Origin: Ancylomarina euxina
GTDB taxonomy: Bacteria > Bacteroidota > Bacteroidia > Bacteroidales > Marinifilaceae
DNA length: 64,000 bases
NCBI RefSeq assembly: GCF_003863355.1
Contig: NZ_QQWG01000004.1
Location: 248,001-312,000, forward strand
Direction of reading: 5' to 3'
Under the pieces are notes generated by a model. The model was given only the letters and a program-made list of their open reading frames with translations. It ran no database searches and was not told the DNA's origin. How positions within the stretch are numbered: position 1 is the stretch's first letter; each line of letters opens with the position of its first letter. Shown piece by piece: positions 5,342 through 19,118 of the stretch. Made by a program: the position numbers and the translations under genes.

Positions 5342-5557
5342 TAAAAAAATCGCACCAGTTAGTAGATTTTAAACTCCTATAAAACAGGATTTGAGTGCCC
5401 ATCTGGTCAAGTTTCCCCTGTGTCCTAAAACAACCCGAAGGTTGGGGCCTGCTTTTGCAAACGTGTAGCTTTCTCGGTAACTTGTAAGTGTTGAGTTTAA
5501 CAATCGATAACTAGCGCGATTATGCTTTTATCTTATATGTAAAGAACGTTCCTTTAT
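5342..5557 (-). ncRNA. Candidate structured RNA, 6S RNA-like
   Basis: The intergenic span 5217-5783 holds no convincing gene but contains a long rod-like fold on the minus strand. The terminal stem pairs 5351-5361 with 5508-5518 (11 bp, two G-U). A second stem pairs 5369-5376 with 5493-5500 (8 bp, perfect) across a symmetric 7/7 internal loop. An inner stem pairs 5408-5413 with 5479-5484. The tip carries a cUUCGg tetraloop hairpin around 5430-5443. A T7 tract (5342-5348) follows the terminal stem, and a consensus promoter lies upstream at 5564-5593. A closing stem, a large central bubble and an apical hairpin in ~170-215 nt are the layout of 6S RNA. Assignment to 6S is inference; another noncoding RNA is possible. 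Confidence 0.5.
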
Positions 5558-17159: not shown

Positions 17160-17684
17160 ATGAAATCCAAACTGATAATACTAATCAGCTCATTCCTATT
17201 TCTTTTTATTTTCTCAAGTGCTTTTGCTCAAAATAAAAAAGAAAGAAAAGCCAAAAGGCAGAAAGCATATATCGAATGCTTGCAGCTAATTGAAGGTGGC
17301 GAATTCAAATTTGAGGCTGAAAAAGCCTATCCTCAAGGAGGATCATCTATCGATTTAACCACAAACTATGGTTTTATTAAAATTTCTGAAAATAAAAGTT
17401 TAGGAGATTTACCCTTTTTCGGAAGAGCATATCGAGTGGATTATGGTGCTGATGGTGGAATCAATTTTGAAGGTGATATTTTAAATGAGAAATTGACTCG
17501 TAACGACAAAAAAATGAAATTGACTTACACCTTCGAAGTCAAGGATAAAGAGACTTACACGGTTATTATGGAAGTCTTTTCAAAACAATCTGCATCCACA
17601 ATTATTCGAACCGATAGTAAAGCTCACATCTCCTATTCTGGGCAAATATCAGAACTAGAAAATGAAAAATCAGAGTCCGAATAA
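17160..17684 (+). CDS. DUF4251 domain secreted protein
   Basis: A 174-residue protein with a clear Sec signal peptide (lysine, then a long hydrophobic stretch, ending SSAFAQN, cleavage about residue 23). The mature part begins with a very basic segment and continues as a DUF4251 domain: an early GGEFKFEAEKAYPQGG and a central GRAYRVDYGADGGINFEG. DUF4251 is a Bacteroidota family of periplasmic or surface proteins of unknown role. It precedes the asnA leader but is probably not co-transcribed, because a promoter lies between. Confidence 0.85.
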   Translation: MKSKLIILISSFLFLFIFSSAFAQNKKERKAKRQKAYIECLQLIEGGEFKFEAEKAYPQGGSSIDLTTNYGFIKISENKSLGDLPFFGRAYRVDYGADGGINFEGDILNEKLTRNDKKMKLTYTFEVKDKETYTVIMEVFSKQSASTIIRTDSKAHISYSGQISELENEKSESE

Positions 17685-17730
17685 ACTCTGGTTTTCGAGT
17701 TCATTTTCACGAAAAACGATTTTTCTTGTT

Positions 17731-17760
17731 TTGTAATTCAAAAAAACTTGTCTAGTTTAG
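17731..17760 (+). promoter_or_regulatory. Promoter of the asnA leader transcript
   Basis: TTG at 17731-17733, a 19-base spacer, then TAGTTTAG at 17753-17760 (seven of eight to TAnnTTTG). The start would be near 17767, only about 14 bases before the first leader ATG. A short lead into a leader peptide is usual for attenuators. Confidence 0.65.
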
Positions 17761-17780
17761 CAGCAGCAAACAAAAAAACT

Positions 17781-17855
17781 ATGAGATCATTCAACAACAA
17801 TAATGCTTTTAATAATTTGATGAATAATAATTCATCAAAATCGGGAAGCTTATAG
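17781..17855 (+). CDS. Leader peptide 1 of asnA (Asn-rich)
   Basis: A 24-codon frame: MRSFNNNNAFNNLM, then NNNSSKSGSL. Nine of 24 residues are asparagine, in runs of four, two and three, encoded by AAC and AAT. An A-rich stretch precedes the ATG, as is usual for initiation in Bacteroidota. The frame ends 30 bases before an intrinsic terminator, and its last codons (17843-17851) are complementary to that terminator's 5' arm. Since the downstream gene makes asparagine, the peptide reads as a sensor of charged tRNA-Asn. No function beyond translation is implied. Confidence 0.85.
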   Translation: MRSFNNNNAFNNLMNNNSSKSGSL

Positions 17856-17896
17856 TTGATTGTTAAAATATACCTACACTAGCTAAAGCCTTCCCC
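17843..17896 (+). promoter_or_regulatory. Antiterminator 1 pairing in the asnA leader
   Basis: GGGAAGCTT (17843-17851) can pair with AAGCCTTCCC (17886-17895) with a single bulge, and TAG/CTA can extend the helix. This pairing consumes the 5' arm of terminator 1. A ribosome at the leader stop codon (17853-17855) would cover it; a ribosome stalled on the Asn codons upstream would leave it free. Confidence 0.75.
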
Positions 17897-17914
17897 TACC
17901 GGAAGGCTTTTTTT
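17885..17914 (+). terminator. Attenuator 1 (intrinsic terminator)
   Basis: A 10-bp perfect stem, AAAGCCTTCC (17885-17894) with GGAAGGCTTT (17901-17910), a six-base loop and a T tract continuing to 17914. It lies before any biosynthetic gene, so it only makes sense as a conditional terminator. Confidence 0.9.
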
Positions 17915-17936
17915 ATAAACACATTTTTATAGCATT

Positions 17937-17981
17937 ATGTATTCATTCAATAATAATAAGACTAATAATAATTTTCCCTGA
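17937..17981 (+). CDS. Leader peptide 2 of asnA (Asn-rich)
   Basis: A 14-codon frame, MYSFNNNKTNNNFP, with six Asn (all AAT) in two triplets. It begins 22 bases after attenuator 1, so it is transcribed only when the first terminator is read through. The stop codon TGA (17979-17981) directly abuts the antiterminator arm GGGTGAGAAAGG. Its start resembles leader 1 (M-x-S-F-N-N-N), suggesting the two arose by duplication and diverged. Confidence 0.85.
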   Translation: MYSFNNNKTNNNFP

Positions 17982-18027
17982 GGGTGAGAAAGGATACCAA
18001 CATGCATTTGTTTGAGCCTTTCCACCC
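17982..18027 (+). promoter_or_regulatory. Antiterminator 2 pairing in the asnA leader
   Basis: GGGTG-A-GAAAGG (17982-17993) pairs with CCTTTCCACCC (18017-18027): 11 base pairs with one bulged A. This sequesters the 5' arm and loop of terminator 2. A ribosome resting on the leader 2 stop codon would mask the first arm. Confidence 0.8.
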
Positions 18028-18045
18028 TATGGAAAGGCTTTTTTT
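18014..18045 (+). terminator. Attenuator 2 (intrinsic terminator)
   Basis: A 10-bp perfect stem, AGCCTTTCCA (18015-18024) with TGGAAAGGCT (18030-18039), a five-base loop and a T7 tract to 18045. It lies 36 bases before the asnA start codon. Confidence 0.9.
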
Positions 18046-18080
18046 ATATCAAAATTTCATTTTAACCAAAATCAAAAACC

Positions 18081-19118
18081 ATGAAAGATTTAATTATTCC
18101 AAAAGATTACAAGAGCTTACTCGACTTAGATCGTACAGAAAAGGCTATCAAGCTCATTAAAGATCAATTCCAATTACAACTATCAGCAGAACTTCGATTG
18201 AGACGCGTTACCGCTCCACTAATCGTGATGAAACACACTGGCTTAAACGATGATTTAAACGGTACTGAGCGCCCAGTAGCCTTTCCCATTAAAGCATTGG
18301 GCGATGATAGAGCTGAAGTTGTTCATTCGCTGGCAAAATGGAAACGCTACATGCTTGGAGAATTAAGTATACCAGTGGGACAAGGTCTTTATACAGATAT
18401 GAACGCCCTACGTCCTGATGAGGACTTTACCAACATCCACTCTCTATATGTGGATCAATGGGACTGGGAAAAAACAATCACCAAAGAAGAACGTAGCCTT
18501 GATACTTTGAAAAAGACCGTTAAACAAATCTATGCGGCACTCAAAAGAACAGAATACATTTTGCAAGAGCATTATCCAAATATCGAAACTCAATTACCCG
18601 AAGATATTCACTTTATCCATGCAGAGGATCTATTACTTAAATACCCAGAACTAAGCCCTAAGGAAAGAGAAACAAAAGTCGCCAAAGAATATGGTGCCGT
18701 CTTTATTATTGGTATTGGTAGCGAAATGGCTAACGGCGAACCACACGATGGTCGCGCTCCTGATTATGACGATTGGAGCACACCTACCCTTAACGGTTAT
18801 AAGGGATTAAACGGTGATATTATTCTTTGGAACCCAGTACTGGAAATTGCCTTCGAAGTATCCTCAATGGGGGTTCGTGTAGATAAAGAAGCACTTGAAA
18901 GACAACTTGAAATTCGTAGAGCTGAATCAAGAAAATCCTTGATGTTTCATAAAAAATTACTTACCGGGGAACTTCCCTATTCAATTGGTGGTGGAATTGG
19001 ACAATCAAGATTGTGCATGTTTCTTTTGAAAAAAGCTCACATTGGAGAAGTTCAATCGAGTATTTGGCCTGATGAACTCAGACAAAAGTGTAAAGAATCG
19101 GATATTTTCATACTCTAG
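18081..19118 (+). CDS. asnA: Aspartate--ammonia ligase (asparagine synthetase A)
   Basis: A 345-residue enzyme making asparagine from aspartate, ammonia and ATP, with a fold like class II aminoacyl-tRNA synthetases. Visible features are RVTAPLIV near the N-terminus, FPIKALGDDRAEVVHSLAKW in the substrate region, GRAPDYDDW, and the motif-3-like GGGIGQSRLCMFLLKK near the C-terminus. The length is about that of E. coli AsnA (330). It is the only gene after the tandem attenuator leader and is closed by a terminator at 19166-19229, so it forms a dedicated, individually controlled unit. Confidence 0.96.
   Translation: MKDLIIPKDYKSLLDLDRTEKAIKLIKDQFQLQLSAELRLRRVTAPLIVMKHTGLNDDLNGTERPVAFPIKALGDDRAEVVHSLAKWKRYMLGELSIPVGQGLYTDMNALRPDEDFTNIHSLYVDQWDWEKTITKEERSLDTLKKTVKQIYAALKRTEYILQEHYPNIETQLPEDIHFIHAEDLLLKYPELSPKERETKVAKEYGAVFIIGIGSEMANGEPHDGRAPDYDDWSTPTLNGYKGLNGDIILWNPVLEIAFEVSSMGVRVDKEALERQLEIRRAESRKSLMFHKKLLTGELPYSIGGGIGQSRLCMFLLKKAHIGEVQSSIWPDELRQKCKESDIFIL

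Follow-up and report, generated by a model that had tools for sequence, protein, structure and literature searches.

The asnA gene of Ancylomarina euxina raises the question of how its transcription is controlled, and why the putative control region should be built twice. Two short Asn-rich leader open reading frames (ORFs), each with one terminator, precede the gene. Ribosome-mediated leader-peptide attenuators are known for the trp, his, thr, leu, ilv and phe operons. According to our reading, asnA would be controlled by a series of two ribosome-mediated transcription attenuators that monitor charged tRNA-Asn; judging from sequence comparison, the probability of this reading is about 0.86.

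The initial annotation of this locus had listed one promoter, two Asn leaders, two terminators and an alternative partner for each terminator. All of these parts were found, and their coordinates hold in the window (the whole stretch of 64,000 nt that was analysed). They follow each other in the order promoter motif, leader 1, terminator 1, leader 2, terminator 2 and asnA:

17730-17760, + strand: promoter motif TTTG-N19-TAGTTTAG, seen in the sequence (TTTG at 17730-17733, TAGTTTAG at 17753-17760)
17781-17855, + strand: leader ORF 1, translated as MRSFNNNNAFNNLMNNNSSKSGSL and a stop codon; 9 of 24 codons are Asn; recurs in relatives
17817-17838, + strand: hairpin across the final Asn codons of leader 1, a possible pause element (consensus pairing in 19 sequences)
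17843-17851, + strand: antiterminator arm 1, within the last codons of leader 1; pairs with the 5' arm of terminator 1
17885-17914, + strand: terminator 1 (stem 17885-17910, then a T run)
17937-17981, + strand: leader ORF 2, translated as MYSFNNNKTNNNFP and a stop codon; 6 of 14 codons are Asn; recurs in relatives
17972-17992, + strand: possible protector hairpin between the codons after the Asn run and antiterminator arm 2 (RNAalifold consensus)
17982-17993, + strand: antiterminator arm 2, directly after the leader 2 stop; pairs with the 5' arm of terminator 2
18014-18045, + strand: terminator 2 (stem 18014-18040, then a T run)
18081-19118, + strand: asnA, encoding a 345-aa aspartate--ammonia ligase (TIGR00669 at 406 bits; cut-off 292.8)

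Hereafter, "gate" means a terminator preceded by an ORF that is 8-60 codons long and has a stretch of 12 codons with 5 Asn or more. The region 17581-18080 contains two gates, and none appeared in 1000 dinucleotide shuffles of it. In the same shuffles an Asn-rich ORF was present in 18 and a terminator in 7 (two and two in the real sequence). A scan of the whole window on both strands found no further Asn gates. In gate 1, the helix between arm 1 and the 5' arm of terminator 1 has 9 pairs and one bulge (-12.1 kcal/mol; as good in 1 of 200 shuffles). In gate 2, the corresponding helix has 12 pairs and one bulge at -18.8 to -19.9 kcal/mol, the latter value being reached by 1 of 200 shuffles. Asn-codon runs, intrinsic terminators and, for each terminator, a helix that excludes it are all present, as expected of leader-peptide attenuators.

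The proposed mechanism is as follows. RNA polymerase would start at the single promoter and copy leader 1. With ample Asn, the ribosome would pass the Asn codons and cover antiterminator arm 1, allowing terminator 1 to form. With scarce Asn-tRNA, the ribosome would stall at the Asn codons, and its leading edge would not quite reach the arm; left free, the arm would take the 5' half of the terminator, and transcription would proceed. The second device of the same build would then act before asnA. We infer that the leaders are translated, that the gates respond to Asn and multiply each other's effect, and that ribosome and polymerase are coupled, as they must be in these Bacteroidota if the system works as read.

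How widespread the arrangement is was asked in a collection of asnA loci drawn from 58 relatives, 56 genomes of the family and 393 genomes of the order, which are overlapping groups. At the order level, 30 of the 393 genomes were searched again and 100 stretches taken; from named-genome contigs, the best 80 of at least 592 asnA matches were used. The resulting 275 loci (270 distinct protein sequences) are a sample, because the order search had matches beyond those listed. Two gates are present at 36 loci, one gate at 17, and none was found at 222, a class that includes L156 with 0 nt upstream, L172 with 69 nt and a few other short ones (e.g. L037, 81 nt). The script alone gave 27, 26 and 222, respectively; L013, L157, L160, L167, L168, L170, L171, L174 and L272 moved from one gate to two after reading or rescoring. 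Since no gate was found at 222 of the 275 loci, most asnA genes in the sample manage without one. Among the best 80 of at least 592 matches from named-genome contigs, no asnA gene has a gate.

Every one of the 21 loci whose AsnA identity is 75% or more has two gates. L003 and L004, from two genomes of the genus of A. euxina, have two gates. In its family, asnA is present in 28 of 56 genomes, with two gates in 21, one in 5 and none in 2 (L015 and L017). Two-gate loci were also found in eight other families of the order (f25, f39, f62, f80, f88, f94, f96 and f113), where the leaders are quite unlike those of the window. In the tree, several deep nodes of which have low support, the leader-bearing AsnA proteins are not gathered in a single clade. 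When the 56 genomes were searched with a covariance model of gate 2, 21 strong matches (E up to 2.9e-10) were obtained; each lies immediately before asnA, and 19 belonged to the training alignment. The same model gave weak matches on gate 1, which was absent from the training set, in 18 genomes; 2 further matches on single gates before asnA; and 14 weak matches away from asnA (E 0.13-0.96). One of the single gates, that of L163 with 6 Asn in 35 residues, is weak. In a phylum-wide sample, asnA was present in 22 of 392 genomes; scanning of 22 loci (6 of them repeats) revealed one Asn gate in each of three, L285, L286 and L291. L291, from another class of the same phylum, has a quite different Asn leader, NANLNSNLNLNANNNAMTAGG, and a terminator upstream of asnA; it perhaps represents an independent gain.

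The alternative helices were tested in two ways. The stretch after the last Asn codon was paired with the 5' arm of the terminator, and the helix was better than in 95% of shuffles in 72 of 80 gates (L147 gate 2, where the stretch is too short, and second gates below the script threshold were left out). Because this test picks the best helix each time, a partner-swap test was added. It was carried out across lineages, since the arms vary too little within the close group for covariation. Over 46 gates, with near-identical loci excluded by a hand-made list, cognate arms paired at a mean of -14.2 kcal/mol vs -9.7 for non-cognate arms, and none of 20,000 permutations was as good; the same was true for first, second and single gates taken separately. 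Cognate pairing was above its own row mean in 45 of the 46 gates, and the cognate terminator was the single best partner for just 6 of the 46 arms. In the 26 two-gate loci tested, the two arms paired with their own partners at means of -13.2 and -15.3 kcal/mol and with the crossed partners at -8.4 and -7.4. Compared among relatives, as suggested when the locus was first annotated, the Asn frames, terminators and alternative helices are thus found again both within the family and in eight further families of the order, and their arms are co-adapted. At equilibrium without a ribosome, the terminator is predicted to be favoured in every first gate (36) and every single gate (17). Of the 28 second gates, 24 likewise favour it, and four, the window's among them, favour the antiterminator.

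The position of the arms is consistent with stalling at Asn. Counted from the first base of the last Asn codon, the first antiterminator pair follows at a median of 13 nt, and at 11-17 nt in 65 of 80 gates. This distance has a standard deviation of 1.2 nt in second, 3.0 nt in first and 4.5 nt in single gates; for the distance to the stop codon the values are 10.0, 5.7 and 10.2 nt, respectively. According to the excerpted text of PMC3641672, a ribosome covers 12-15 nt from the P site, so an Asn-stalled ribosome would end just before the arm. Folding the complete leader at equilibrium under a ribosome mask failed to give the difference between stalled and finished ribosomes that the model requires: terminator 1 was retained at every ribosome position (in a scan off by one base), and terminator 2 was formed already with the ribosome on the last Asn codons. 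For this reason the nascent RNA was folded instead, through the terminator loop and short of the terminator's 3' arm, keeping the ribosome footprint unpaired and assuming that a formed antiterminator persists.

In this model, leader 1 of the window allows 10 antiterminator pairs wherever the ribosome is on an Asn codon, and the number falls to 9, 5 and 0 as it moves through the three codons that follow. Leader 2 allows 12 to 11 pairs at the Asn codons, then 8, 6 and 0. With the ribosome on the last Asn codon the two gates keep 10 and 11 pairs, and with the ribosome at the stop codon 0 and 0. Across 81 gates, at least 6 antiterminator pairs were possible at some Asn codon in 80, at the last Asn in 71, and in 15 with the ribosome at the stop codon. 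In 62 of the 81 gates the last permissive codon falls between -1 and +2 of the last Asn, and in 19 outside that range. That a stalled ribosome would free the antiterminator and one at the stop codon would mask it is thus a prediction of the modelling, in which the Asn-stall geometry is conserved across loci. The early proposal that stalling at Asn codons frees the antiterminators gains support from the relatives, the co-adapted arms and this conserved geometry. Several observations count against the attenuator reading: the 222 loci with no gate found, the second gates that favour the antiterminator without a ribosome, the 19 gates whose last permissive codon lies outside that range, and the arms that have a better partner than their own terminator. 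Another is that leader 1 varies across 20 loci at codon positions 1, 2 and 3 in 10, 12 and 15 of 23 codons; as positions 1 and 2 vary nearly like position 3, codon-level purifying selection is weak outside the Asn runs. What sequence comparison documents is that the parts exist and recur, that the helices exclude each other, that the stall geometry is as predicted and that the arms are co-adapted. It is very probable that the asnA leader is a genuine leader-peptide attenuator, doubled and specific for asparagine.

Leaders for other amino acids stand before matching genes in the same genome. Outside the window (L298, about 1110-1490), two near-identical His leaders, MIFIALHHHHHFFLPQVSR and MIFKTQSHHYHHLYLLQVS, each with a terminator, lie upstream of hisG. 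In both, the last His codon is followed 14 nt later by the start of the putative arm (p 0.004-0.006). With a looser rule for His gates (3 His in 12), 31 hisG loci were scanned in the family, which has 44 genomes with hisG: 5 have two gates, 23 have one and 3 have none. The loci with two His gates are exactly those of the five genomes of the A. euxina genus; 23 of the other 26 have one gate. A TrpE-like gene (L336-L340), presumably trpE, is preceded in 5 of 5 genomes of the genus by a leader that has a run of three Trp codons (MNASVCKFWWWHN...), together with a terminator. Thr-containing leaders, for example MNFTLTTTTMITMGSIITM..., with a terminator precede a bifunctional thrA-like gene in 3 of 3 stretches fetched (L374-L376). 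Before an Asn_synthase-like gene (L299), no Asn leader was seen by eye in the stretch inspected.

Other explanations of the asnA region have to be weighed against the same data. Terminator 1 could end the upstream gene, with asnA read from a later promoter of its own and the Asn frames being by-products of AT-rich DNA. There is indeed a gene on the same strand at 17160-17684, ending 96 nt before leader 1, and one sigma-70-like match at 17926-17954. However, sigma-70-like matches are no commoner than in shuffles (5 vs a mean of 7.6), and the promoter motif recurs just before leader 1: a sequence with at most one mismatch to TTTG...TAnnTTTG, which we take to be the Bacteroidota promoter consensus, ends 16-25 nt upstream of it in 26 of the 36 two-gate loci (counted with no shuffle control). 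From the stem of terminator 1 to the ATG of leader 2 there are 13-26 nt in the 28 loci measured, a gap in which a second promoter would hardly fit; both gates should therefore share one transcript. Together with the gate-free shuffles, this makes the explanation highly improbable, and we reject it. It is just as hard to believe that the leaders encode functional Asn-rich small proteins, with asnA controlled otherwise. The leader 1 peptide remains recognisable in close relatives. Beyond the close group, however, the leaders have little in common apart from the Asn runs and the Pro that follows the run in many second leaders. What is fixed is the distance from the last Asn codon to the antiterminator arm.

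A more serious alternative accepts the attenuator and denies the doubling a function: just one gate would matter, and the other would be a decaying duplicate. The 17 loci that live with one gate suggest that one may suffice, the second gate of the window and that of L003 favour the antiterminator at equilibrium without a ribosome, and the His leader was duplicated recently in one genus. We nevertheless regard this explanation as rather unlikely, given that two gates occur in all 21 close loci and in eight other families, that at most loci neither gate has lost its terminator or its alternative helix, and that in the 26 two-gate loci the arms on average prefer their own terminator. Returning to two functional gates in series, a wider proposal has in our view slightly better than an even chance: this group may have used same-signal tandem peptide attenuators repeatedly, with Asn upstream of asnA in nine families and with His upstream of hisG in one genus; the gates in series would multiply, so that repression is tight and a single uncharged tRNA evokes a steep response; and the Asn version may be the first asparagine-specific ribosome-mediated attenuator. 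If true, asparagine joins the amino acids sensed by leader-peptide attenuation, and a doubled same-signal layout has been kept across divergent AsnA sequences. Relatives with two, one or no gates before asnA would then amount to a natural experiment on the benefit of serial gating.

Compared with attenuators of the trp and his type, the asnA gates show the same product-amino-acid leader ORF, intrinsic terminator and antiterminator that a stalled ribosome would free; unlike them, they place Asn codons before asnA and set two complete attenuators for the same amino acid in series. The trp case is described in PMC3641672, which in the part available also describes the Salmonella mgtCBR operon. 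There, two tandem leader ORFs in one leader RNA each affect transcription into the coding region, the leaders answer different signals (ATP and Pro), and the stem-loops are unlike intrinsic terminators. The asnA leaders are likewise tandem, but both are Asn-rich and both have intrinsic terminators; a pair of ORFs for different signals, as at mgtCBR, was not found at asnA. Within the Bacteroidota, leader-peptide attenuation has been proposed before amino-acid operons of Flavobacterium psychrophilum (PMC9723704, as far as excerpted). Asparagine, asnA and asnB do not occur in the main text of that paper, and doubling does not occur in the excerpted passages.

A T-box resembles the asnA gates in that tRNA charging controls a terminator; the asnA gates differ by their leader peptide. 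In a T-box the RNA binds the tRNA directly with no leader peptide, and T-boxes sometimes control Asn-tRNA ligase genes; the survey of PMC2494555, from which these points are taken in excerpt, gives no T-box in 7 Bacteroidetes/Chlorobi genomes. No T-box or other Rfam element matched at the asnA leader. The novelty claimed in the initial annotation has to be narrowed, given that attenuation in Bacteroidota had already been suggested (PMC9723704) and tandem leader ORFs were known (PMC3641672), both as judged from excerpts; the specificity for Asn and asnA and the doubling for one signal were not found in the open-access literature searched. Searches of the open-access literature found no Asn-codon leader before an asparagine synthetase gene (Vitreschak 2004 and Lopatovskaya 2010 could hold cases), and nothing relevant was found on his or trp leaders in Bacteroid papers. 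The kind of attenuator is hence known, and its Asn specificity and same-signal doubling look new within the open-access literature searched.

Two further hairpins may correspond to the pause and protector elements of classical attenuators. In the putative pause hairpin (17817-17838), 98.1% of cells are paired in 19 sequences. Its paired fraction and its covariation score were each reached by 2 of 500 shuffles, its number of pairs changed on both sides (2) by 67 of 500, and its further pair types by 69 of 500. The putative protector hairpin of gate 2 (17972-17992) has 7 pairs with weak covariation in the RNAalifold consensus of 19 close relatives. Some details of the second leaders may also be mentioned. 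Pro codons often follow the Asn run (SPPG, RPPPP, CPP), e.g. in L006, L009, L027, L152 and L160, and may serve either nucleotide pairing with the antiterminator arm or slowing of the ribosome. In leader 2 of L109 (-155 to -50 before asnA), an extra C after the Asn run moves the frame beyond the usual stop, the Asn run and the arm being intact; an error in the draft assembly is possible. Finally, the sole gathering-level Rfam match in the window is a Bacteroidales-1 RNA (RF01693, suggested to be 6S-like) at 5342-5521 on the - strand, with 76.1 bits.
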